Origin: a virus
Virus record (IMG/VR): IMGVR_UViG_3300025122_005155
Coordinates: 1-30,383 of that record
Length of the DNA stretch: 30,383 nt
Reading direction: 5' to 3' (one strand)
Shown: positions 737 to 19,016 of the stretch, piece after piece
Layout of the letters: each line of letters opens with the position of its first letter
Numbering within the stretch: position 1 is the stretch's first letter
The notes under the pieces: model-generated
What the model was told of the DNA's origin: nothing
Database searches by the model: none
What the model saw: only the letters and a program-made list of their open reading frames with translations
Program-made: the position numbers and the translations under genes

Positions 737-1705
737 GTGAAGATATCAGAGTCACACCTACGACGATTGATCTCCGAGGAGCTTCGGAAGCTGTGGGAGG
801 TCTCGTGGAGGTGGGATCCTAAATCATCCGGTCGACGGGGAGGACGACATCACCCCGAGCCCGGAACGGTCCGCGGACCCCAGCCACCCGGATCGTGGCC
901 CCACCACGTGTCACCGAGGAACTTCCAGGATACGATCGATCTCCTGAGGTCCACCGACGAGTTCGGTCGGGTGACGACCTCCGGTATATACGATCACCTC
1001 CGTGCTGCGGGTTACACCGACGACGCCATCTCCGTCGCCGTCGACGAGTACTCCGGATCGGAACTCGACGAGGGATCACACCTACGTCGGTTGATATCCG
1101 AGGAACTCCGGTCGCTCCGGGAGTCCGACCCGAGGTTCTGGTCCAGTTTCGAGGCTGACATCATGTCCCGGGACCCAAGCCGATGGGATCCTCCGGAGAC
1201 AACCGAGTGGCCGGAGGGAACCCCCCTCTTCGCCCGGAGGCCGACGGAACGGTCGGAACCACCTAGCCTGGACCACGTCGACATGGCCCTGGTTGGAAAC
1301 CTGGTCCGCGATCTCGGATACGATGTCCACAAGGTGATAGCCGGCCGGTTCGGTTCCCGGATGAAGGTCTACAGTCGCCAGGACGGGCACCGGCTGGGCG
1401 TCGGCCTTCCTGTGTACGACGACAGAGGTCACGAGGTCCGGAACCCGGTGGCAGATGTGCTCGACCGGATCCAGGACCTGCAGCTCCGGATCAGCAAGGA
1501 CTTCTGGGATGCCCATCCCCACTCCAAGGACCCGAAACCCCGGAAGCACATCCTCACCCTGGAGAAGCTCCGTGAGGAGATATCCCAGGCGATCGAGGAG
1601 GCCCAGGGACTCCAGGACATGTTCTCGGAGAGAGGGGATCCCCGGCTCTCCCAGGAGATCGGCAGCGCGCTGTCCGAGTTTAAGAAGGAACTTCACTGGC
1701 GTTAA
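737..1705 (+). CDS. putative internal virion protein with two copies of the N-terminal charged module
   Basis: 322 residues from a GTG start. Residues 7-21 read HLRRLISEELRKLWE, the best example of a module shared by most genes up to 8211. A second copy, HLRRLISEELRSLRE, lies at residues 115-129 and is nearly identical in DNA too. Between the copies is an Arg/Gly/Pro-rich stretch and a short helical domain. The rest is charged and helical, with Leu/Arg-rich heptads near the C-terminus (about 240-320). No catalytic motif is visible. The two copies suggest fusion of two once-separate genes or internal duplication. If the module is a capsid-targeting peptide, LWE (19-21) and LRE (127-129) would be T4-type processing sites. 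Codon use is strongly GC-biased (the 60 bases from 1381 contain 42 G or C). Confidence 0.7.
   Translation: MKISESHLRRLISEELRKLWEVSWRWDPKSSGRRGGRHHPEPGTVRGPQPPGSWPHHVSPRNFQDTIDLLRSTDEFGRVTTSGIYDHLRAAGYTDDAISVAVDEYSGSELDEGSHLRRLISEELRSLRESDPRFWSSFEADIMSRDPSRWDPPETTEWPEGTPLFARRPTERSEPPSLDHVDMALVGNLVRDLGYDVHKVIAGRFGSRMKVYSRQDGHRLGVGLPVYDDRGHEVRNPVADVLDRIQDLQLRISKDFWDAHPHSKDPKPRKHILTLEKLREEISQAIEEAQGLQDMFSERGDPRLSQEIGSALSEFKKELHWR
752..1123 (+). repeat. imperfect direct repeat encoding the duplicated module (752-799 and 1076-1123)
   Basis: Two 48-base segments, both starting TCACACCTACG, encode the two copies of the HLRRLISEELR module in the same frame. They differ at only a minority of positions, many of them synonymous. 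This points to a fairly recent duplication or gene fusion. Confidence 0.7.
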
Positions 1706-1714
1706 GCCTTCCTG

Positions 1715-1729
1715 GGGGAACTTTTCCCC
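1715..1729. terminator. short GC hairpin after the 737 gene
   Basis: GGGGAA-CTT-TTCCCC forms a perfect 6-bp stem with a 3-base loop, 10 bases after the stop codon. No T-run follows, so it is a weak candidate for an intrinsic terminator. It may instead be an mRNA-stability hairpin. Confidence 0.3.
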
Positions 1730-1749
1730 AACCTTTCACCCACAGAAGG

Positions 1750-1757
1750 ATACTTAG
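1750..1757 (+). promoter_or_regulatory. ATAYTTA motif upstream of the 1793 gene
   Basis: ATACTTAG lies 43 bases before the TTG start, almost the same spacing as the copy at 560 (42 bases). Both are preceded by GG and followed by an AC-rich segment including CACG. Confidence 0.3.
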
Positions 1758-1792
1758 ACACGTGGTGCTATCCGCGCCGCCGGAGGTCCAAC

Positions 1793-2026
1793 TTGGAAGA
1801 CGTAACAGAAGAGGTCATCCGAAAGGTTGTCAAGGAGTCTGTCACCAGGTTGGGACCGAAGTCCCGGGAGGAGTTTTGGGTGGGGAACGCCATCATGAGT
1901 GCTCTGAGTGACATCGGGTACAGGTTGTTCGCCAGCCGGCAGGAGGAGATCCTGGACATCGCCCGTCGGATTGTCGAGATGGCCGAGGAAGATTCCATGA
2001 AGATGGGGAGCGGAAAAGAACGATGA
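1793..2026 (+). CDS. small helical protein, module-related N-terminus
   Basis: 77 residues from a TTG start, chosen for the GGAGGT five bases upstream. The N-terminus (residues 5-19, TEEVIRKVVKESVTR) resembles the shared charged module but lacks the terminal (L/I)-x-E. The rest is helical and charged, with no catalytic motif. Its stop overlaps the next start (ATGA), which suggests translational coupling. The function is unknown; co-location suggests the same compartment as its neighbours, probably the virion. Confidence 0.6.
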   Translation: MEDVTEEVIRKVVKESVTRLGPKSREEFWVGNAIMSALSDIGYRLFASRQEEILDIARRIVEMAEEDSMKMGSGKER

Positions 2027-2460
2027 ACGAGAAGGAACTGAGAAGGATTATCCGGTCTGAGGTTAAGGCCCTGCGGGAGGCACGAGTGTCGACCGCGGCC
2101 TCTGACCCTCCAGAACCGGAGACCATGGTGGCCACCCGGGATGCCGGTGTGGCAGCGTCACACAAGGAGTACCTGGTTGACATAGCTGACGAGTTGGCGG
2201 TGGAGATGCTTCAGAATCGGACCATGTTCCGGAGCGCCATTCACGTGCTAGCCCGCGGTTTCGTCCTCCTCCGAAATAAGGTGGGTGTACATCCTGATGA
2301 TCGTGGTGACCATGTCCTCTCTATAGAGAACGCCTTCATGAATGTTTTGGATTCCATGATTCGGCGCGACATCGAGTCACTGGAGATCGACCGGTCGGAG
2401 GACCGTTCCGCGGGGGCTAGCCCACCATTATCTGAAACTACCTCAGAGGACCCCTCCTGA
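2023..2460 (+). CDS. putative internal virion protein with N-terminal charged module
   Basis: 145 residues. Residues 5-19 read ELRRIIRSEVKALRE, a clear copy of the shared module ending in LRE, a possible prohead-protease site. Residues 45-120 form a helical domain including the pattern SHKEYLVDIADELAVEML, and the C-terminal 25 residues are acidic and Ser-rich. The start overlaps the previous stop (ATGA) and the stop overlaps the next start (TGATG). No known domain is recognised. Confidence 0.65.
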   Translation: MNEKELRRIIRSEVKALREARVSTAASDPPEPETMVATRDAGVAASHKEYLVDIADELAVEMLQNRTMFRSAIHVLARGFVLLRNKVGVHPDDRGDHVLSIENAFMNVLDSMIRRDIESLEIDRSEDRSAGASPPLSETTSEDPS

Positions 2461-2801
2461 TGGACCAGCTACAGAAAATCATTGACCGTGAGGTCAGGGA
2501 ACTTCTCGCTGAGCAGGATTTTGGATCTGTTCGAGCCGCCGGCGGAGATGTTGGCAAGCTGGGATCAGCCCTGTCCACCGACCTAGCAGCGGCCTTCCAA
2601 TCCGTCACCTCCCGATTAGCCCAAATTGAACAGGCCATCTCCTCGATCCCAGCCGCGACCAGATCCGACATTGAGTCGGCCATCGACGACACAGCCAAGA
2701 GAGTTGACTCCCCTGAGAAAGCGGAGGCCTTCGAAGGATCCATCCGAACCGGTCAGGTTGGTCGACAGTTACATACGTACAATCAAGGAACAGTCACATG
2801 A
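2460..2801 (+). CDS. putative internal virion protein with N-terminal charged module
   Basis: 113 residues, beginning with DQLQKIIDREVRELLAE (2-18), a copy of the shared module ending in LAE. The middle (residues 35-85) is Ala/Ser-rich and predicted helical, with heptad-like hydrophobics that could form a coiled coil (AAFQSVTSRLAQIEQAISSI). No catalytic residues are visible. It overlaps genes on both sides by 1-4 bases, so it belongs to one polycistronic unit. Confidence 0.65.
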   Translation: MDQLQKIIDREVRELLAEQDFGSVRAAGGDVGKLGSALSTDLAAAFQSVTSRLAQIEQAISSIPAATRSDIESAIDDTAKRVDSPEKAEAFEGSIRTGQVGRQLHTYNQGTVT

Positions 2802-3688
2802 AACTTACCAAGAGCGAGATATACGGCATCATCCGAGAGGAACTGACCCCCATTATAAAGGAGGAGCGGTCCAGTCGTCATGATGAAGACGAGATCCACG
2901 ATCCTGATGCGAAGGAAGAGCCCGAGGAGGAGGAAAAGGAAGAGGAACTCGAGGAAATGGCCGGCCGAGAATCTCCTGGTCGTTACGCCATCCGTGACTG
3001 GATGCAAGACCACAAGGGACAAATTGACCAGCTAGCCGCCGCCGCGTATTCCCGTGGTAATGCCGCGCGGGCTGCTGAGGGATTGTACAACCTCCTGATG
3101 TCCATCCAGGATGCTGACCTGGTTGGCCGCGGGGTCTCCCCCGATAAGATGGGACGGCTCCTAATGGCCGTGCAAAAACTTAATCAAATAAGGAATCCTA
3201 GAATGCGGGCCCAGCGCCTGGCCGGCCTGGCTTATGGCAACATCCTAGGTGCCGAGGGTCTCCAGGCCCTCCGGGAGGGTGTTGAGAAGGCCAAACCCGT
3301 GTCGCTCAACGCCACTGATCTCCGAAGAATCATCACCCAGGAGTCCCAGAAGATCAACGAGATCTTCACCTCGGCAGGAGGTATCGGGTTCGTCGACCTG
3401 CCGACTATGACCCGGAGGAGCTCCTTCCTGGATGAGAATCCTCCGATGGACCACGCCGAGGAGATCGAGGAACAATCCGGACCCATGGATGGGGCCCGTG
3501 AAACCATCCAGTTCGACCAGATCCTCGAGGACCCGTTGATGGGATGGGTTGTGGAAGTTCTCCGGGCTAGGTGCCTCTGTAAAGAGACCATGGACGACGG
3601 TAGAGAGATCGATCTGGACCCGCGGGGACTTGATCCGGATACCGAAGCCCGATTAACTCGCTTCATTCACCACTCCGGTGGTCGGTAG
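2798..3688 (+). CDS. putative internal virion protein with N-terminal and internal charged modules
   Basis: 296 residues. Residues 1-22 carry the module (KLTKSEIYGIIREELTPI, then IKEE). Next comes a very acidic Glu-rich stretch (about 25-52). Residues 55-155 form a helical domain with the pattern YAIRDWMQDHKGQIDQLAAA. A second module copy, SLNATDLRRIITQESQKINE, starts near residue 168, so the protein again looks like two module-led units joined. The C-terminal part contains a Cys pair (RCLCKETM) and acidic residues. IKE, INE and LEE sites would be T4-like cleavage candidates. The start overlaps the upstream stop as ATGA. Confidence 0.65.
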   Translation: MKLTKSEIYGIIREELTPIIKEERSSRHDEDEIHDPDAKEEPEEEEKEEELEEMAGRESPGRYAIRDWMQDHKGQIDQLAAAAYSRGNAARAAEGLYNLLMSIQDADLVGRGVSPDKMGRLLMAVQKLNQIRNPRMRAQRLAGLAYGNILGAEGLQALREGVEKAKPVSLNATDLRRIITQESQKINEIFTSAGGIGFVDLPTMTRRSSFLDENPPMDHAEEIEEQSGPMDGARETIQFDQILEDPLMGWVVEVLRARCLCKETMDDGREIDLDPRGLDPDTEARLTRFIHHSGGR

Positions 3689-3713
3689 AGGAATAGAGGA
3701 AAGGTACCCGAAC

Positions 3714-4028
3714 ATGAAGATCAAATTATCAGACCTCCAGCAGATCGTCCGGGAGGAGATTAAGAAGTCCAAGGGAAAGTGGGTCCAGGACCCTCCGGAG
3801 GGATCACCCCGTGCGGAGGACCAGTTGGAGGCCCAACACCCGTCGGAGATCGTCCCCCTATCCACGTGGGAGGGTGGGGATAACCTCCACCTCGACGTCG
3901 ACCACCCTAAGGATGCCGGATCTGAGGCCACCACCAAGGAACTGGAGATCCTGGCCCTGGTCAAGGAGGTCATCTCCAACCACATTGTATCCCTAATTTC
4001 TGAGAACTCGTCCACGAAGGAAGGTTGA
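3714..4028 (+). CDS. small acidic protein with N-terminal charged module
   Basis: 104 residues from ATG 3714, which has AAGG nine bases upstream; an upstream in-frame GTG at 3678 overlaps the previous gene and is less likely. Residues 1-18 read as the module (KIKLSDLQQIVREEIKKS). The remainder is acidic, Pro/Glu-rich and probably partly disordered, ending with a short helix (ELEILALVKEVISNHIVSLI). There is no (L/I)-x-E directly after the module. The function is unknown. Confidence 0.6.
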   Translation: MKIKLSDLQQIVREEIKKSKGKWVQDPPEGSPRAEDQLEAQHPSEIVPLSTWEGGDNLHLDVDHPKDAGSEATTKELEILALVKEVISNHIVSLISENSSTKEG

Positions 4029-4035
4029 CCCCGCT

Positions 4036-4749
4036 GTGAAGATCAACGAGAAAAATCTTAGGTCCCTCGTTCGGGACGTCCTCCTCGAGGCCTACGGCGA
4101 CGACGCTGCCTACGCCCGGAGGGAGAGGCAGTTTCAGGCCGCGCAGGGCCGTTACGACGCCATGGAACCCCCGGAGGATCCTTACGACCCTGATGACTTT
4201 CGTGAGGAGGCCTTGGTGGCCATCCTGGACAATGTCACCGAATTCGATGATCGAGTAACTCTTCCTCTCATTGAGGCGGAGACCGATATCAACGTTATTC
4301 TCTTCAGTGCGGCTAGTGAGGATGTAAGCTCCCTTCCTGAGGACATCCAGGAACTTGTTCCAAGCCTGCAGGCGGCAACCGGAGGTGGGAACATGGAACT
4401 GTTGGACGATGAGGCTGTTGACATTGTCCTATCGAATGATTGGAAGTGGAAAGATGTCGGCAAGAAGAGTTTGTACGGCACACCTCTCCGGACGGTGGAA
4501 ATCACCAAAGAGGGTTTAATCTTAAGGTTAGCTACTCACCTGATCGGAGGCTTTGGAAAAAAACTAGACATCTCTAATCTTCCTCCCTCATGGAAGTCTC
4601 TCGCTGAATTGATTTCTGACCACATCTTAAAAGCAGTTGACCGCCTACTTGAGGATTCGGAGTGGGTCGAGCAAGCATACCAGGATGCACGAGAGGCCGC
4701 CGAAGAGGACGCCGCGGAGGCCAAAGCAGACTACCCTGACGATTGGTAG
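4036..4749 (+). CDS. acidic putative internal virion protein with N-terminal charged module
   Basis: 237 residues from a GTG start, 7 bases after the previous stop. The first 18 residues, KINEKNLRSLVRDVLLE and the initiator, match the shared module, and LLE-A is a candidate processing site. The mature part is acidic, with a domain at about 45-190 of mixed strands and helices and a strongly acidic Ala-rich C-terminus. No enzyme motif is visible. The protein is unrecognised. Confidence 0.65.
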   Translation: MKINEKNLRSLVRDVLLEAYGDDAAYARRERQFQAAQGRYDAMEPPEDPYDPDDFREEALVAILDNVTEFDDRVTLPLIEAETDINVILFSAASEDVSSLPEDIQELVPSLQAATGGGNMELLDDEAVDIVLSNDWKWKDVGKKSLYGTPLRTVEITKEGLILRLATHLIGGFGKKLDISNLPPSWKSLAELISDHILKAVDRLLEDSEWVEQAYQDAREAAEEDAAEAKADYPDDW

Positions 4750-8211: not shown

Positions 8212-8930
8212 TGATCCATGTCGAACAGAATGTTGACCTGGACGAGAATGACCTCGGGATCATAGAGGAGTTCTTCAGATTCTGCTGCGAGAGGTTGGAA
8301 CTTCCAGAGACTGTCTCCGTCCACCTTGTCGCCAACCGGGATGGTCTGACCACCGCGGGTGCGTACCACGTCGGTGAGTCAAAGTGTCGTGTCCTGGTAG
8401 GAGACCGGGCGAGGGCAGATGTAATGAGGTCCATGGCACACGAGATGGTTCATGCTCAACAGGATGGACTGGGACTTTTAGGTGGACATGTCCAGGATAT
8501 CGGAGGTGACATTGAGGATGAGGCCAATGCCGTTGCGGGCCGGCTGGTCAAGGAGTTCTCCTACGACTATGGTGTTGACAAGGTGTACGAGGGCCTAGAC
8601 CCTTCTAGGATCGACTTTAGGCAGCTAACACGAGGATTTCTGGTCGGTGAGTCCCAACCAGACTGCCAGATTGTCAACGAGGTCTCCGGTAAGGTCGACC
8701 CCAACAATCCCTTCGGCAATGTCGACATCGACTATCAGATCCGGAGGATGATCGGAGAGCTAATCTCGATGAACGGCCTGACGAATCGTTCGATGATTAA
8801 CGTTCTGCGTTCCCTGCAATTTCTTAGTGACTCCACCCACCGCTCCTGTGATGAGCTACTTCAACAAATGCTGGATGTCCTTAATCAGGAGATGACGAGT
8901 CGTCCTCATCCCCAGGAGATAGAAGTCTAG
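8208..8930 (+). CDS. HExxH zinc metalloprotease-like protein
   Basis: 240 residues. HEMVH at 78-82 is a classical zinc-binding HExxH motif, and DEANAVAGRL from residue 104 supplies a downstream Glu/Asn environment like the third-ligand helix of gluzincin or M78-type (ImmA/IrrE-like) peptidases. It sits at the end of the putative virion operon with a 4-base overlap with the 6142 gene. It could be a virion-processing or ejected peptidase. The C-terminal 100 residues are helical and unrecognised. It lacks the charged N-terminal module. The last 50 bases overlap the 3' end of the convergent protease gene. Confidence 0.65.
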   Translation: MMIHVEQNVDLDENDLGIIEEFFRFCCERLELPETVSVHLVANRDGLTTAGAYHVGESKCRVLVGDRARADVMRSMAHEMVHAQQDGLGLLGGHVQDIGGDIEDEANAVAGRLVKEFSYDYGVDKVYEGLDPSRIDFRQLTRGFLVGESQPDCQIVNEVSGKVDPNNPFGNVDIDYQIRRMIGELISMNGLTNRSMINVLRSLQFLSDSTHRSCDELLQQMLDVLNQEMTSRPHPQEIEV

Positions 8931-9642
8931 TTTTACTCTCTTCTATAAAGTTCCTTATTTCCCTTAGAGGAACAACAATAGCAAAATTCTCCATTAGGGG
9001 AAAAGATGCAGAGACTATCCCTATTAGTTCTCCTCTAGAGTTTAAAACAGGCGATCCGCTACTCCCTGAGCCTATGGGGATCGTATAAATGTCCATGTCC
9101 ATGTTTAAACTTCTTCCACTGTAAATACCTTCAAATATCAAGATAAAATTTGGCTCAAAAAGGGCATAAGGAGCAGCTATATTGTAAACTCTATCACCTC
9201 TTTTAGGTGGGATACGAGACAGTCTAATAGGTTTTCCAACATCGTTGTTAGATTCAAGCAAACAAAGATCTACATCTAGTTGAAAAGTTAAAATTTCTGC
9301 GTCAAAAGTCTCAAAATTGTAATTTATCACCTGGTTTTTTGTTTCAACAGTTGCTAATGTACTAGATTTTTGATCCATGTCACAAGAATGACCAGCCGTA
9401 AGAATGTATGACTTTCCATTATCTTTAAAGACAATAACACCCGATGAAGATTGAACGACACCAGAAATTTCTACTTGATCAGAGTTTTTTTCTACAATTT
9501 TAGACTCGTATAAAACAAATGATTCTGTGGGTAGTAGGTTGCTGCTATATATTTTTAAAGTTATGACAGACAAGAACAGAAATAATGTAACAATTATAAA
9601 AATTCTCGATAATCTGTTCATTTTTTTCAGAGTTTGACTCAC
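8881..9642 (-). CDS. membrane-anchored trypsin-like serine protease
   Basis: 253 residues from GTG 9642; ATG at 9621 (residue 8) is an equally plausible start and neither has a clear ribosome-binding site. Residues 13-32 form a hydrophobic signal anchor. The trypsin-fold triad is visible: TAGHS (His85), FQLDVDLCLLE (Asp125) and GSGSSGSP (Ser195). The fold probably begins near residue 58. It resembles small S1-family periplasmic proteases of the DegP/trypsin superfamily, but no PDZ domain follows. The protein would sit in the inner membrane facing the periplasm. It is AT-rich, unlike the gene it overlaps, and marks a sharp change in composition. It is the only gene on this strand between 8.9 and 20 kb. 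Confidence 0.8.
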   Translation of the reverse strand: MSQTLKKMNRLSRIFIIVTLFLFLSVITLKIYSSNLLPTESFVLYESKIVEKNSDQVEISGVVQSSSGVIVFKDNGKSYILTAGHSCDMDQKSSTLATVETKNQVINYNFETFDAEILTFQLDVDLCLLESNNDVGKPIRLSRIPPKRGDRVYNIAAPYALFEPNFILIFEGIYSGRSLNMDMDIYTIPIGSGSSGSPVLNSRGELIGIVSASFPLMENFAIVVPLREIRNFIEESKTRLLSPGDEDDSSSPD

Positions 9643-11378: not shown

Positions 11379-12551
11379 GTGTCAATTTTCAGACAGCATA
11401 AATCTTCTTCAGATCGATCCGCATCAGATCGGAGACGACACAAGACAAAGATTGAAAAAGCCATTAAGGATGGCATTCATAACATTATTGCAGAAGAATC
11501 TATCATTGGAAAAGATGGAAAGAAGAAGATAAGAATTCCAGTTAAAGGAATCAAAGAATACCGCTTTGTCTACGGAGATAACAAAACAAATAAAAAGGTG
11601 GGTTCTGCCCCTGGAAAAAATATTAAAAGAGGGCAAAAAATTGGTGATAAAAGAAAAACTTCTCCTGCTCATGGCAATAAACCCGGAGATAAACCTGGCG
11701 AAGAATACTATGACGTAGAGGTTACTTTAGAAGAACTTTCTAGATACTTGTTTGAAGATTTAAACTTACCAGAACTTGAGAAGAAAAAATTCAAGTTCGT
11801 GACACAAGAAAAACCTAAAAGAAAAGGACACAGAAACCAGGGCATTAGAATCAGATTATCCAAGAAAGAAACCATTAAAAATAAACTTAAAAGAAAAGCG
11901 ATTGCCAAGAAATTAGGAACATATGACGAAGATTCTGATGAAAGATTTCCTTTTCATGAGTCTGATTTGAGATATCGACATTTTTCTAACAAGCCAAAGG
12001 AAAATAGTTGTGCTGTCGTCTTTTTTATTATGGATGTTTCGGGTAGCATGTCTACTCAAAAAAAATACATAGCCAGAAGTTTTTATTTCTTAGTCTATCA
12101 GTTCCTAAGGTACAAGTATGAAAACATAGAAATTATTTTTATTTCTCACGATACCAGCGCAAAAGAAGTTACTGAAGATGAGTTTTTTTCTCGGGGTTCT
12201 AGTGGAGGAACACTGATATCTCCGGCTCTATCTTTGATGGGAGACATAGTTGAAAAAAGATACCATCCCACCATGTGGAACATCTATGGTTTTCACTGTT
12301 CTGACGGTGACAATTGGTCAGATGACATCCCAAGAACATTAACAGAAACTAAAAAATTAATTGACATGTGTCAAGTTTACACGTTTTGTGAGATAACCCC
12401 AGAAGGAGAAACTTATGGAAAAGATTTTTCCGATACATACAGTACGTACTTGCCTTTTTATGGAAAGAAATTTAAAATTGTAAAAATTACTTCTCCTTCT
12501 GAAATATGGCCAGTTTTCAAGAAAGTTTTTGGAGGTAGAGAAGATGTATGA
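11379..12551 (+). CDS. yeaH: YeaH/DUF444 family von Willebrand factor A protein
   Basis: 390 residues from a GTG start with TAGGA upstream. The N-terminal half is basic and Lys/Gly-rich, including a GGTG-like flexible linker (75-110), as in DUF444 proteins. The C-terminal half is a VWA domain: MDVSGSMS gives the MIDAS DxSGS (219-223), followed by RSFYFLVYQFLRYKYENIEI, SSGGTLISPAL and WNIYGFHCSDGDNW, all close to E. coli YeaH. In bacteria YeaH works with the PrkA kinase and SpoVR in stationary-phase and nitrogen-stress responses. It is the first gene of the three-gene set here and overlaps spoVR by 8 bases. Confidence 0.92.
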   Translation: MSIFRQHKSSSDRSASDRRRHKTKIEKAIKDGIHNIIAEESIIGKDGKKKIRIPVKGIKEYRFVYGDNKTNKKVGSAPGKNIKRGQKIGDKRKTSPAHGNKPGDKPGEEYYDVEVTLEELSRYLFEDLNLPELEKKKFKFVTQEKPKRKGHRNQGIRIRLSKKETIKNKLKRKAIAKKLGTYDEDSDERFPFHESDLRYRHFSNKPKENSCAVVFFIMDVSGSMSTQKKYIARSFYFLVYQFLRYKYENIEIIFISHDTSAKEVTEDEFFSRGSSGGTLISPALSLMGDIVEKRYHPTMWNIYGFHCSDGDNWSDDIPRTLTETKKLIDMCQVYTFCEITPEGETYGKDFSDTYSTYLPFYGKKFKIVKITSPSEIWPVFKKVFGGREDV

Positions 12552-13854
12552 CTGGTCTGTATCAGAACTTAATAAGTGGGATAATAAAATATGTAAAATA
12601 GCTTCATCTTATGGATTAGACTGGTTCGAAATTGACTATGAGATCTGTGATTATTATGACATGATAGGAAATATGTCGTATACCGGCATGCCAACTCATT
12701 ATCACCACTGGAGTTTTGGAAAGCAATTTGAAAGAACCAGGTTTTATTACGACATGGGATTGGAAGGACTTCCGTACGAGATGATCATTAATTCAAACCC
12801 CAGTATCGCTTATCTCATGAGAGAAAACTCTCTTCCCATGCACATACTGACAATGGCACACTGTGTAGGACACTCTGATTTTTTTAAAAATAACAAAACC
12901 TTCCGTCATACAGATCCTGAAAATATAATTTCAAGATTTAGATCAGCAGCTGAGAGAATTAGAAAGTATGTAGAAGATACAACTATAGGAATTGAAGAAG
13001 TTGAAAATATCTTAGATGCCTGTCACAGCTTAAAGTACCAGCGAGATCGAGTATCCGGGGTTAAGAGATTGACACATGAAGAAATAGTAAATAAAAAAAT
13101 TAGAAAAATCAATCTTAAAGAAAAAGGGTACGAATATATTGTCCTGGACAAGTTTCCCTCTGAACCTGATTATAACATCCTACAGTTTATTAGAGACAAT
13201 AGCAGAAATCTTAGTGAGTGGCAGAAGGATATTATTAGCATAGTTGATAACGAGACAGAGTATTTTATACCTCAAGCACAGACAAAAATTATGAACGAAG
13301 GATGGGCATCGTTCTGGCACTATAAGATACTCCACGACCTCGACCTCCCTCAGGAGTTTCATTTTTCTTTTATAAAGACTCACAACCAGGTTATTAGACC
13401 ACACTTGGGTGGAATCAATCCTTACCATGTTGGTTTTAAAATTTTCGCTAAGATTGAAGAAGAAGAAGGATTGGAATCCTGTTTTTTTGCAAGGGAAGTT
13501 CACAATGACACGTCATTTTTAATGGAACACCTTGATGAAAAACTGTGTAAAGATTTAAATCTATTTTCTTTTTCTAAGAAAAAAGAATACTATTCTATTG
13601 ATGAAATTTCTGACGATGATGGATGGCAGGTCATTAAAAGAGATTTTATAAATTCAGTGGGCCTTAATGCTGTTCCAAAAGTTTACGTCGAGAGTGTTGA
13701 TAGGCATGATTGTTTGATGACTGTTAGACATGAGTTTGACGGTCGAGAGCTTAATTTAGAATATGCTGATAAGGTTTGTCACAAGATTTCAGACTTGTGG
13801 GGCGACGAAGTTAGGTTTTTTACAATAATAGAGGACGAAGATTGGGAAATATAG
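12544..13854 (+). CDS. spoVR: SpoVR/YcgB family protein
   Basis: 436 residues from ATG 12544, which has GGAGG six to seven bases upstream; an earlier TTG is less likely. Diagnostic segments of the family are present: GMPTHYHHWSFGKQFERTRF, INSNPSIAYLMRENSLPMH, AHCVGHSDFFKNN, then NEGWASFWHYKILHDL and a C-terminal domain at about 325-436. SpoVR is needed for spore cortex in Bacillus, and YcgB is its proteobacterial counterpart in PrkA regulation; its biochemical activity is not settled. It is full length or nearly so (E. coli YcgB is about 510). The His residues (HYHHW, AHCVGH) are retained. Confidence 0.93.
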   Translation: MYDWSVSELNKWDNKICKIASSYGLDWFEIDYEICDYYDMIGNMSYTGMPTHYHHWSFGKQFERTRFYYDMGLEGLPYEMIINSNPSIAYLMRENSLPMHILTMAHCVGHSDFFKNNKTFRHTDPENIISRFRSAAERIRKYVEDTTIGIEEVENILDACHSLKYQRDRVSGVKRLTHEEIVNKKIRKINLKEKGYEYIVLDKFPSEPDYNILQFIRDNSRNLSEWQKDIISIVDNETEYFIPQAQTKIMNEGWASFWHYKILHDLDLPQEFHFSFIKTHNQVIRPHLGGINPYHVGFKIFAKIEEEEGLESCFFAREVHNDTSFLMEHLDEKLCKDLNLFSFSKKKEYYSIDEISDDDGWQVIKRDFINSVGLNAVPKVYVESVDRHDCLMTVRHEFDGRELNLEYADKVCHKISDLWGDEVRFFTIIEDEDWEI

Positions 13855-13865
13855 TCCTTTAACAG

Positions 13866-13893
13866 TTGCTCGATAATATTTACTATTGATAAT
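13866..13893 (+). promoter_or_regulatory. candidate promoter of prkA
   Basis: TTGCTC (13866-13871) and GATAAT (13888-13893) are separated by 16 bases, a reasonable sigma-70 arrangement. The recurrent ATATTTAC motif (13876-13883) lies between them. The whole sits 13-40 bases before the prkA ATG and after a 51-base gap from spoVR. Confidence 0.35.
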
Positions 13894-13905
13894 CAGGAGT
13901 TTTAC

Positions 13906-15837
13906 ATGGCCTCGTCTGAACTTTTAGGTCTGATCAAAAAACATAGAAAAGAGAGGAAAGTTGACAAATTTTCCGGAACTCTTCTTGACTATCTAGAGAT
14001 TATAAAAGATGATGTTTCTATTTGTAATCTTGCCCATAAAAGACTTTACGATGCCATTGTAGAAAAAGGTATCGATCCAATGGATCCGTCAGATATAAGA
14101 TGCAAAAAATTATTTGAGGGTGAAAGTGTCCCAATTTATGAGTACTACTCACCTCATTTTTTTGGAATGGAAAGATGCATCTCTCAGTTTATGAGATTTT
14201 TAAAATCTGCCTCCATGAGAGGAGAAGAAAGTCGTCAAGTTCTTCTCCTTTTGGGTCCGGTAGGAGCAGGAAAGTCTGCACTGGTAGAAAGAACAAAAAA
14301 GATCCTGGAGAGCCTTCCTCCCATTTATCACCTCGAGGGATGTCCCATCAGGGAGGAACCTCTTCATTTGATTCCTAGGTCATTAAGATCTCAATTTGAG
14401 GAAATTCTAGGAATCAAAATTGAAGGTGATCTGTGCCCAGTTTGTCGCCACCGACTTCAAAATGAATTTAAAAATCAGTACGAAGATTTTCCAGTACAAA
14501 CATCCACGTTTTCAATCAGGGCTCGGAGAGGGATAGGAGTTGTTCCTCCAATTGATGCAAACACACAAGATGCTTCAATCCTTGTGGGATCTGAGGACAT
14601 ATCAAAGTTAGACCTATATCCTGAAGATGATCCAAGAGCTATTTCTTTAAATGGCGCGTTTAATGTTGGAAATAGAGGTGTTGTAGAATTTGTAGAGATT
14701 TTTAAAAATGAGATTGAATTTTTACATGTTATATTGACCGCCACTCAGGAAAAATCAATTCCATCCCCTGGTAAAAATTCAATGATCTACTTTGACGGAG
14801 TTATACTTTCACACTGCAATGAAGCTGAGTGGAATAAATTTAAGTCGGATCATACTAACGAAGCCATTCTTGACAGGATCGTGAAAATAACCGTTCCTTA
14901 CTGTCTAGAACTAGATGAAGAAATTAAAATTTATGAAAAGCTAATAGAGCAATCTGATTTTAAGGCACACATTGCTCCTCACACTCTCCGAGTCGCATCA
15001 ATGTTTTCTGTGATGTCCCGATTGAAAGAATCCCAAAAATGTGACATTCTTACCAAGATGAAGATCTACAATGGATCAGAGATCGTTGAAAAAGGAAAAG
15101 TTAAAAAGGTTGACATAAAGGATCTGAGAGAAGAGACTCGTGAAGAGGGCATGACTGGTATTTCTACAAGGTTTGTCATGAAGTCCATTGATAACGCTCT
15201 TTCTGACTCCACAAACGGGACAATTACCCCCATATCGATCAGGGAATCCCTTGTCAAGCAAGTAAAAGAACAGGTCGTAGCTGAAGATGAAAGAACTAGA
15301 TACCTTGAACTACTCCAAAAGGTTATACACGAGGAATATTTAAACCTTCTCGAAAAAGAAATAACTAAAGCATTTGTCATGGCCTACGAGGAACAAGCTG
15401 AGTCACTTTTTGATAACTACTTAGATCATGCTGAAGCTTTTGTTAACAAGACAACCCTCAAAGACGATACCACTCGAGAAGATCGAGATCCAGACGAAAA
15501 TTTCATGAGATCAATCGAGGAACAGATTGGAATTACAGGTTCAGCTAAAGACGGTTTCCGAAACGATGTTACTAGTTATATGTTCGCTCTCTTAAGGAGG
15601 GGAAAGAAGGTTAAGTGGAACACTTACGGACCTCTCAAGGATGCCATAGAAGGTAAGCTTATGTCGTCTGTTAGGGAGATAGCAAGGATTGTGACCAAGT
15701 CAAAAACTAGGGATAGAAAACAAAAAAAGAAGTATGATGACATGGCTCGGACCCTCATAGAGGATTATGGATACAATGAAGACTCTGCTGAAGAGATTCT
15801 CAAATATGCTGCAAACCATCTATGGAGAGACAACTAA
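13906..15837 (+). CDS. prkA: PrkA family AAA+ serine protein kinase
   Basis: 643 residues, the same length as bacterial PrkA/YeaG. ATG 13906 has AGGAG upstream. An N-terminal domain precedes the Walker A motif GPVGAGKSA (117-125). Then come the Cys-containing LCPVCRHRLQ, the family-specific FSIRARRGIGVVPPIDANTQDAS, LNGAFNVGNRGVVEFVEIFKN and the Walker-B/sensor region ILTATQEKSIPSPGKNSM. The C-terminal part (about 400-640) is the kinase-like domain. The protein would phosphorylate Ser/Thr targets in the cytoplasm; bacterial targets are only partly known. With YeaH and SpoVR it reconstitutes the complete cellular set in one phage operon, in the order yeaH-spoVR-prkA. Confidence 0.93.
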   Translation: MASSELLGLIKKHRKERKVDKFSGTLLDYLEIIKDDVSICNLAHKRLYDAIVEKGIDPMDPSDIRCKKLFEGESVPIYEYYSPHFFGMERCISQFMRFLKSASMRGEESRQVLLLLGPVGAGKSALVERTKKILESLPPIYHLEGCPIREEPLHLIPRSLRSQFEEILGIKIEGDLCPVCRHRLQNEFKNQYEDFPVQTSTFSIRARRGIGVVPPIDANTQDASILVGSEDISKLDLYPEDDPRAISLNGAFNVGNRGVVEFVEIFKNEIEFLHVILTATQEKSIPSPGKNSMIYFDGVILSHCNEAEWNKFKSDHTNEAILDRIVKITVPYCLELDEEIKIYEKLIEQSDFKAHIAPHTLRVASMFSVMSRLKESQKCDILTKMKIYNGSEIVEKGKVKKVDIKDLREETREEGMTGISTRFVMKSIDNALSDSTNGTITPISIRESLVKQVKEQVVAEDERTRYLELLQKVIHEEYLNLLEKEITKAFVMAYEEQAESLFDNYLDHAEAFVNKTTLKDDTTREDRDPDENFMRSIEEQIGITGSAKDGFRNDVTSYMFALLRRGKKVKWNTYGPLKDAIEGKLMSSVREIARIVTKSKTRDRKQKKKYDDMARTLIEDYGYNEDSAEEILKYAANHLWRDN

Positions 15838-16616: not shown

Positions 16617-16693
16617 CGGCCCCTAGCTCAATAGGTTAGAGCACCCGGCTCATAACCGGTAGGTTCTGGGTTCAAGTCCCAGGGGGCCGACCA
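16617..16693 (+). tRNA. tRNA with CAU anticodon, best read as tRNA-Ile2 (lysidine-modified)
   Basis: A complete 77-base cloverleaf with encoded CCA. The acceptor CGGCCCC pairs fully with GGGGCCG, the D-arm is GCTC/GAGC, the anticodon loop is CTCATAA (CAU at 16651-16653), and the T-arm is CTGGG/CCCAG with TTCAAGT. CAU alone allows Met or Ile2. The acceptor C4-G69 and C5-G68 pairs are positive determinants for TilS in E. coli, and the body resembles E. coli tRNA-Ile2 more than tRNA-Met. A TilS gene starts 23 bases downstream. After C34 is changed to lysidine this tRNA would read AUA. The C1-G72 pair is unusual for elongator tRNAs. Confidence 0.93.
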
Positions 16694-16715
16694 ATTTTAT
16701 TTTTTTGGAGGAAAG

Positions 16716-17327
16716 GTGATTAAAAGTAACGTTAAGATCCCTGATCAAGTAGCAATTGCTGTTTCAGGAGGGCCTGATTCAATGGCGATTTTAGATTTTC
16801 TTAGACGCGGCCCAAAAGAGATTCAGGTTCTTCATTTCAATCACGGAACTGACCATTCTTTTGAAGCCGAAGAGATTGTAAGGGACTATTGCGACAGGTG
16901 GAAGATCGATCTCAAGGTTGGAAATCTTACTGAGAAAGTTACTAAGGGATCTTCTCTTGAAGAGTTTTGGAGAAAAAACAGGTATAATTTTTTTGAAAGG
17001 TCAACCAAAAGACCGGTGATTACCTGTCATCACCTCGATGACGTTGTTGAGAATTGGGTATTTACCTCTTTAAACGGGAATCCAATGATGATCCCATCTA
17101 AGAGGGGAAAGTACATCAGACCGTTTCTGGTGACCACTAAGAAGGACTTGCTTAGTTGGTGTGATAGAAAAAACGTTCCTTATATTATCGATCCAAGCAA
17201 TAGTGACACGTCATTCATGAGAAACTTAATTAGACATGAACTCATTCCAGTTGCATTGAAAGTAAACCCAGGACTGTCTAAGGTGATTAGAAAAAAGGTG
17301 TTAAATCTTCCAACTATTTACCAGTAA
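16716..17327 (+). CDS. tilS: minimal tRNA(Ile)-lysidine synthetase
   Basis: 203 residues from a GTG start, with GGAGG a few bases upstream. It belongs to the PP-loop ATPase family: SGGPDS (17-22) is the ATP-binding motif, and HFNHG (40-44), CHHLDD (104-109), RPFL (135-138), DPSNSD (159-164) and RNLIRHELIP (169-178) follow TilS in order. TilS modifies C34 of tRNA-Ile(CAU) to lysidine, changing its reading from AUG to AUA and its charging from Met to Ile. The C-terminal substrate domains of E. coli TilS (432 residues) are absent, so this is a catalytic-core-only form. Placement directly after the cognate tRNA supports the assignment of both. Confidence 0.9.
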   Translation: MIKSNVKIPDQVAIAVSGGPDSMAILDFLRRGPKEIQVLHFNHGTDHSFEAEEIVRDYCDRWKIDLKVGNLTEKVTKGSSLEEFWRKNRYNFFERSTKRPVITCHHLDDVVENWVFTSLNGNPMMIPSKRGKYIRPFLVTTKKDLLSWCDRKNVPYIIDPSNSDTSFMRNLIRHELIPVALKVNPGLSKVIRKKVLNLPTIYQ

Positions 17328-17642: not shown

Positions 17643-19016
17643 TTGTCGTATGGTCTCTATCACAAAATGGAACAGAGTGAACAATTTTCTAAAGTTTTAT
17701 TAGATCTAGATTTCCAATCTGAAATTCTTAAGTTTTTCAATAAGAAAATTGTTGATAAAAACTTTATAGTCTATGATGGTTCTAACATCAGGACAACCAG
17801 CAAGATGTACCTTCCCGCATCTTTTACTTTTGATAACTCTTCAGGGTTAGAAAAAATATTCTCTAGTTTTATTCTTGATGGATATTATCGATCAGAATTA
17901 TTAGCTCCTGGATCTGGACAGTTGTGTATTAAGTTTTTATTCTCCCTAATTGAAAAGTATAAAAAAAACTCCCTCTTGGGACTGAACGATGAAAATTTTC
18001 ACGGAGATGTTGATTTTTTTGTATCAGATGTAAAAAAAATTTTTCAACAGAGTTCTAGGTTTTCCACACTAAAAGATCTGAAAGAAATACTTCTCCGGGC
18101 CTCGGGAGAAAAAAATTTAGTTGAAACATGTCTTAAATGTCTTGAATTATCAGGAATGACAGGAACTATTCACATTCTAGATCAGGTAACTGATAAGACA
18201 ATATTAGAAAGAAATGGTGGATATACTTTTAAACTTCCTCAGAAATCTTATCATGGCTCATGGCAGAGAAGAAACACTCAGTGCCTGGTCATAGATGGAA
18301 TTATAGAATCTATCTCAGAAATTCACGGACTCTTAGAGACTTTATCTTCATCAGACATCCCAGTGGCAATCATAGCTAGATCATTCTCTCCTGACGTCGT
18401 CAATACAATTTTAGTGAACAATGCTAGGGAAACTTTAGATGTTGCCTTAGTGTCTGTAGGGTATGAGATAGAAAATACTAATATCTTAGTTGATATTTCT
18501 AAAGTTGTCGGAACAGATTTAATTTCACCCCTGAAAGGTGACTTGGTATCAACAACAAAGTTAGAAGAGTTAAAAAACACAGATCTTTTAACTCTTCATG
18601 AGAACAACTTAGTCATAGTAAATAATTCTACTTCCCCTTCTGTAAAATCACATCTTGATAGAATAAGAAGAAAAATATCTACATCTGAGGATCTTGGTGT
18701 TAGAAAAATACTAGAAAAAAGAATAAAATCTCTTCAACCTTGTTGCGTCTCAGTTAAACTTTCTCGAGATATAGGTCAAAACTCTAGGGAAAAACTAGAC
18801 TACATGTTTAGAATTACAAAGTGCATCATAGAAAATGGAATATGTGATCCTTGTGATTCTTTAATTGCAGATAGTAAATATTTTCCAAACCTGACGGAAG
18901 AAATATCCCGTGTTTTTAGTCCCGTTCAAGTAGAATCGTCTATTTTAAACGCCTTGTCTTTGTTTAAAATATTTAAGAATATTGACCATACAATATTATT
19001 GGATCGAGAAATTTAA
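17643..19016 (+). CDS. divergent, probably ATPase-dead GroEL-like chaperonin
   Basis: 457 residues from TTG 17643; ATG at 17667 (residue 9) is an alternative and neither has a clear ribosome-binding site. The GroEL domain order can be followed. The equatorial part is degenerate, with SELLAPGSGQLCIKF (85-98) where GroEL has its GDGTTT ATPase signature. The intermediate part has GEKNLVETCLKCLELSGMTGTIHI (155-178). The apical domain has RNGGYTFKLP (190-199), CLVIDGIIESISEIHGLLETL, and IPVAIIARSFSPDVVNTILVNNARETLDVALVSVG (239-273), close to the GroEL apical fold. The C-terminal equatorial part (340-457) has RRKISTSEDLGVRKILEKRI and PVQVESSILNAL. The GAAT and GGG motifs are missing. It is shorter than GroEL (about 548). 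It may be a specialised phage folding factor or a regulator of host GroEL. Confidence 0.75.
   Translation: MSYGLYHKMEQSEQFSKVLLDLDFQSEILKFFNKKIVDKNFIVYDGSNIRTTSKMYLPASFTFDNSSGLEKIFSSFILDGYYRSELLAPGSGQLCIKFLFSLIEKYKKNSLLGLNDENFHGDVDFFVSDVKKIFQQSSRFSTLKDLKEILLRASGEKNLVETCLKCLELSGMTGTIHILDQVTDKTILERNGGYTFKLPQKSYHGSWQRRNTQCLVIDGIIESISEIHGLLETLSSSDIPVAIIARSFSPDVVNTILVNNARETLDVALVSVGYEIENTNILVDISKVVGTDLISPLKGDLVSTTKLEELKNTDLLTLHENNLVIVNNSTSPSVKSHLDRIRRKISTSEDLGVRKILEKRIKSLQPCCVSVKLSRDIGQNSREKLDYMFRITKCIIENGICDPCDSLIADSKYFPNLTEEISRVFSPVQVESSILNALSLFKIFKNIDHTILLDREI

Follow-up and report, generated by a model that had tools for sequence, protein, structure and literature searches.

Phages bring tRNAs, and they are usually thought to depend on host enzymes for modifying them. 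The tRNA-Ile2(CAU) of T4-like phages was predicted to be lysidine-modified (PMC1524935), and lysidine at C34 has been found on a vibriophage tRNA-Ile2(CAU), as reviewed in PMC13191261. For these tRNAs, modification by host enzymes has been suggested, whereas at the locus described here the gene of a predicted tRNA(Ile)-lysidine synthetase (TilS) adjoins the tRNA gene. Phage TilS is known as well. The 2019 paper on phage MIJ3 names TilS and gives the CAU tRNAs as Met, and the part of that paper available to us makes no link to AUA or tRNA-Ile2 (PMC6892783). The TilS proteins of MIJ3/PA5oct and of two uncultured phages (LR756502 and LR745206) are core-only, about 195-203 aa long, 46-48% identical to the TilS of our locus and members of the same clade; in MIJ3/PA5oct, however, the CAU tRNAs lie 7-10 kb from tilS, as opposed to 22 nt here. 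Ralstonia phage RsoM2USA also encodes a tRNA(Ile)-lysidine synthase, but this protein has 349 aa and is not core-only (PMC8504454); it was absent among the matches of searches with our TilS.

Bacterial TilS of type I (E. coli; G. kaustophilus, 3a2k) and type II (A. aeolicus, 1wy5/2e89) share the N-terminal PP-loop catalytic domain, its motifs and its fold with the phage protein, but they extend past this domain, whereas the phage protein ends just after it. Type I enzymes have the C-terminal domains CTD1 and CTD2, of which CTD2 contacts the acceptor stem; in type II enzymes CTD2 is missing (PMC12514573). Even the shortest Mycoplasma-type TilS examined continues for about 96-114 aa past the catalytic domain, unlike the phage protein. 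In the literature that we searched, which took in few subscription papers, we came across neither a linked tRNA-tilS cassette nor a clade of core-only TilS, and no mention of tilS genes that avoid AUA.

Linkage of tRNA and tilS genes

The DNA analyzed here is an IMG/VR virus record of 30,383 bases (IMGVR_UViG_3300025122_005155), referred to in its full length as the window. A first-pass annotation, made from the letters alone, had described a tRNA-Ile2(CAU) gene directly followed by the gene of its own lysidine synthetase, a catalytic core with all catalytic motifs. Both genes were recovered side by side (Table 1), and no intrinsic terminator was called on the plus strand of the spacer between them.

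Table 1. Positions of the tRNA-tilS locus and of the tmRNA gene in the window
Feature	Position	Strand	Basis
tRNA-Ile2-like gene, anticodon CAU, CCA end encoded	16617..16693	+	ARAGORN; Rfam RF00005, 67.3 bits
22-nt spacer with T-run and ribosome-binding site GGAGG	16694..16715	+	read from sequence
tilS, predicted core-only tRNA(Ile)-lysidine synthetase, 203 aa, GTG start	16716..17327	+	TIGR02432, PF01171, PDB relatives, AlphaFold, Foldseek
tmRNA of the same gene cluster, tag ANNSNYNDYALAA	19962-20323		ARAGORN, Rfam

TilS relatives were confirmed at no fewer than 558 places in IMG/VR (not necessarily all core-only), and core-only forms are also present in PA5oct/MIJ3-like Pseudomonas jumbo phages and in the two uncultured phages mentioned above, whose genomes are 635-642 kb long. 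A non-redundant set of 67 phage loci (<90% identical) was compiled, and 47 bacterial TilS were added for the tree. Every phage TilS fell on one side of a single branch, opposite the 47 bacterial proteins (SH-aLRT 98, quick method); two loci labelled "Flavobacteriales" (L096 and L097) were placed inside the phage clade and were counted as phage, and under midpoint rooting MIJ3 TilS was the first branch in this clade. By sequence, the window TilS is thus assigned to a phage-specific, core-only clade. The median bacterial tilS reading frame has 399-459 codons (80 loci). The nearest kin of the window, L017 and L022, have the YhbH-SpoVR-PrkA genes, a GroEL-like gene and PhoH2 in common with it, and their tRNA lies 7-8 nt upstream of tilS.

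Of the 67 phage loci, 38 had a same-strand CAU tRNA, and in 18 of these 38 it lay no more than 200 nt before or after tilS, against a random mean of 1.4 and a maximum of 7 in 2000 trials. The side-by-side arrangement is therefore recurrent in divergent phages beyond chance. At 29 of the 67 loci the stretch covered contained no CAU tRNA, which counts against a cassette. Long stretches were available for twelve relatives, nine of which had exactly one CAU tRNA, mostly close to tilS; G249 had two, G260 had three, none of them near tilS, and G262 had none in the stretch covered, which leaves out its tilS-bearing end.

Nor is the linkage exclusive: in one clade, a tRNA-Leu(UAA) gene takes the place 14 nt after tilS (L035:6738-6823, L036:6636-6722 and L039:6705-6790). 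It is the sole tRNA of these loci of ~12.6 kb, and the stretch covered contains none with a CAU anticodon.

We consider it highly probable that the tRNA and tilS act together as a self-contained cassette for AUA decoding; being poor in AUA, its enzyme gene would be translatable before the cassette works. The phage tRNA would be made with a CAU anticodon, and the phage TilS core, using ATP and lysine, would convert C34 of the neighbouring tRNA to lysidine, switching it from Met/AUG to Ile/AUA. The host isoleucyl-tRNA synthetase (IleRS) would then charge the lysidinylated tRNA, which would serve the abundant phage AUA codons, and AUA-containing messages would be read faster. The initial proposal that the two genes let the phage read AUA without relying on the host is sound insofar as the two genes recur together and their pairing makes functional sense, but independence was overstated because host IleRS would still be needed; no IleRS gene was seen in the 30-kb fragment. 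In this clade of large phages, the enzyme that would fix the identity of the tRNA travels with the tRNA.

AUA codons in phage tilS

AUA had been tied at first to the AT-rich genes around the locus, with the genes at 17643 and 13906 as examples. AUA does occur there (19 of 43 and 15 of 54 Ile codons, respectively), but the share of AUA among Ile codons was 30.5% in the AT-rich and 24.7% in the GC-rich genes of the window, near the 34% and 27% expected from third-position composition. Since composition was followed in both regions, AUA use special to AT-rich genes was ruled out.

The window tilS itself has no AUA among its 16 Ile codons (p about 0.004). Over the 67 phage loci, AUA makes up 94 of 941 tilS Ile codons (10%) compared with 32.6% in neighbouring ORFs; 298 were expected, which gives z -14.9, and the value was still -13.2 when the 1.5-kb flanks were taken for comparison (these and the following z-scores assume independent loci, and the phages are partly related). 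When the codons were tested one by one, AUA was the sole strongly avoided codon (z -15.3), followed by TGC at -2.9. Phage tilS genes thus avoid AUA almost uniquely among codons, which is a new result. AUA was under background at 58 of the 67 loci and entirely lacking from tilS at 30. Avoidance was not seen in L052 (9 of 17 Ile codons), L095 (8 of 19) and L078 (6 of 18), which counts against the cassette. In the catalytic domains of bacterial tilS, no AUA avoidance was detected (observed/expected 0.88-0.99, about 80 loci).

Could tilS avoid AUA simply because, as a conserved gene, it is under the usual selection for translation, with a cassette that works as stated and no bootstrapping of its enzyme? 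On full phage contigs tilS ranked 7 of 33 core families by AUA depletion, so that it is not the most AUA-depleted gene of all. Six core families are depleted to the same extent or more (observed/expected 0.06-0.38), and conserved neighbours, such as the glutamine-synthetase-like and ClpP-like genes, reach about 0.6, as ordinary selection would predict. However, most of the strongly depleted families, which by eye include capsid-, ligase- and ssDNA-binding-like ones, also avoid the codons AAA, TTA and AGA, with an rms of 2.8-5.5 for other codons, whereas the rms of tilS is 0.99 and its deviation is the most AUA-specific among the families listed. The lack of avoidance in bacterial tilS also argues against general selection on this gene, and we regard this explanation as rather unlikely, though it survives better than the other alternatives.

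Few other genes have a depletion led by AUA; sigma-factor-like genes belong to these. At L208:18542-19578 (G245), a sigma-factor-like gene and a small neighbour are low in AUA (observed/expected 0.32 and 0.00, respectively) with little broad bias.

Our preferred reading of the avoidance is that tilS, and perhaps other early genes, may have been selected for translation before AUA decoding capacity is raised. Codon use would then suggest that the decoding of AUA is a real bottleneck during infection.

Identity of the tRNA

ARAGORN labelled the tRNA as tRNA-Met, but this tool does not split CAU tRNAs. The gene reads CGGCCCC-TA-GCTC-AATAGGTTA-GAGC-A-CCCGG-CTCATAA-CCGGT-AGGTT-CTGGG-TTCAAGT-CCCAG-GGGGCCG-A-CCA, with C-G pairs at 1-72, 4-69 and 5-68, the pair C29-G41, A73 and an encoded CCA. 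The hallmarks of tRNA-Ile2, namely the CAU anticodon, the loop CUCAUAA and A73, are all present. The sequence is 79% identical to E. coli tRNA-Ile(CAU), 68% to elongator tRNA-Met and 61% to initiator tRNA-Met (both Met references were confirmed as annotated tRNA-Met), and its E. coli matches, among those listed, are all annotated as tRNA-Ile. As originally proposed, the tRNA is Ile2-like.

Were the phage tRNA instead an elongator or initiator tRNA-Met, TilS would act on the host tRNA-Ile2 and boost the AUA capacity of the host. Apart from the ARAGORN label, such a role would fit the finding that E. coli Ile2 is not the best match of every linked tRNA in relatives; many relatives' tRNAs remain unclassified by plain identity to the E. 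coli references. The window tRNA, however, is nearest to Ile2 by 11 points and lacks the marks of initiator tRNA-fMet (a 1-72 mismatch and GGG/CCC at 29-41, 30-40 and 31-39), having C1-G72 and the stem CCCGG/CCGGU. Most relatives examined have a single CAU tRNA, which tends to sit near tilS. We therefore judge a Met identity to be very improbable.

The pairs C4-G69 and C5-G68, which are TilS determinants in E. coli, had been pointed out in the first-pass annotation. Both pairs are present, but they say little about recognition by the window enzyme, because in type I TilS they are contacted by CTD2 (PMC12514573), which is absent here, and because only 12 of 34 distinct linked phage tRNAs have C4-G69 together with C5-G68; these tRNAs do conserve the CAU loop and A73. 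The acceptor pairs were more frequent in phages outside the TilS matches (8 of 10 vs 12 of 34 linked, p 0.03), but these controls had been picked up by their resemblance to E. coli Ile2 or the window tRNA, which biases the comparison. A further E. coli determinant, G27-U43 (PMC12069591), is lacking from the window tRNA, which has C27 and U43; this counts against the cassette.

A catalytic core without C-terminal domains

The tilS product scored 127.3 bits with the NCBIfam model TIGR02432 lysidine_TilS_N (cut-off 93.6) and 128.5 bits with PF01171 (cut-off 27), and its only sequence relatives in the PDB are 3a2k, 1ni5 and 1wy5, that is, three solved TilS. The protein has the motifs SGGxDS, HHLxDxxE, RPx..K and DxSNxDxxxxRNxIR, most of which recur without change in 40 phage homologues; S17-GG-D21-S22, E82, R89, H105-x-L-D-D109, E112, K142, D159, N162, R169 and R173 are invariant there, and the catalytic residues are thus maintained across about 50% divergence. 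For the AlphaFold model (pLDDT 95.1, pTM 0.90; input of 37 window and locus sequences), the top Foldseek matches were TilS structures (TM 0.79-0.85), namely 1ni5 from E. coli and those of A. aeolicus, among them the complex with ATP and lysine (2e89); TtuA sulfurtransferases followed (TM 0.68-0.78). From its sequence the product is identified as a TilS catalytic domain, which would be expected to form lysidine.

The domain match stops at residue 175-178, and ~25 residues remain to the end of the protein. Neither CTD1 (types I and II) nor CTD2 (type I) is present in the 203-aa protein; it is therefore neither type I nor type II but a core-only form, as the first-pass annotation had stated. Loss of both tRNA-binding domains would also be expected of a PP-loop protein that has decayed or taken on another role, such as regulation or host viability, with no working lysidine synthetase activity. 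A PHROGs search retrieved no TilS family and just weak PAPS reductase/QueC matches, and the MIJ3 authors speculate on host viability (PMC6892783). Invariant catalytic residues, linkage to CAU tRNAs and an AUA-specific codon signature all speak for a working enzyme, and there is only a slim chance that the protein has been repurposed.

The absence of CTD1 and CTD2, which other TilS use for tRNA recognition, counts against the cassette, as the core enzyme would have to choose its substrate in some other way. Candidate aids in telling the phage tRNA from Met tRNAs may be ac4C on host tRNA-Met, abundance and co-expression. Least credible is a promiscuous core enzyme that lysidinylates host tRNA-Met/fMet and disturbs host AUG decoding: the loop CUCAUAA is common to E. 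coli Ile2, eMet and fMet, and the reader of the acceptor stem, CTD2, is gone, but AUG decoding by the phage would suffer too, and linkage to its own CAU tRNA and AUA avoidance would be left unexplained. Substrate choice becomes directly testable with a TilS that lacks the domains by which Ile2 is told from Met tRNAs.

CAU tRNAs with long variable arms

Long-variable-arm CAU tRNAs were found in several tilS phages (L003:7662-7747, L005:9899-9984 and L009:5180-5262), those of L003 and L005 lying 16-90 nt from tilS, and tRNA-Leu-like class II CAU tRNAs are present at L061:8461-8544 and L081:9753-9836. Because of these tRNAs, reassignment of AUA to Leu was suspected. It was ruled out on whole contigs, where AUA columns match Ile in relatives much like AUU/AUC. 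In G256, for example, AUA sites gave Ile 0.28 and Leu 0.19 and AUU sites 0.30 and 0.20, respectively, while Leu codons gave Leu 0.46-0.57. The long-variable-arm CAU tRNAs are probably remoulded tRNAs.

One can tentatively imagine that large phages evolved a third TilS type, in which a catalytic core works on a dedicated tRNA that drifts from host TilS recognition, even towards long-variable-arm or tRNA-Leu-like bodies. The two would make up an orthogonal AUA-decoding pair with an AUA-poor, self-starting enzyme mRNA; we hold this to be possible, at somewhat less than an even chance.

Other features of the window

tmRNAs such as that listed in Table 1 recur in tilS-carrying relatives (L017, L022, L043, G245, G249, G250 and G261), and the phage tmRNA perhaps rescues ribosomes stalled at rare codons. 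Positions 11379-15837 of this phage carry three consecutive genes of a bacterial stress/sporulation set (YhbH/YeaH-like, SpoVR-like and a PrkA-like kinase), which are 66-77% conserved in L017 and L022. A divergent GroEL-like protein of 457 aa (17643-19016), with a weak match to chaperonin models, is only 28-33% conserved in the nearest relatives.

The GC content of the window changes in steps at about 8900 and 22600, being 52-61% to ~8.9 kb, 33-40% to ~22.5 kb and then ~52% in the tail-fibre gene. Within the GC-rich block, consecutive ORFs at 737-4749 have a common N-terminal motif like (M)K....LRR.I.EEL, which occurs twice in the 737 ORF and looks as if it were a targeting or scaffold signal. 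A trypsin-like serine protease gene (8881-9642) is located on the minus strand, with nearly all other genes nearby on the plus strand.
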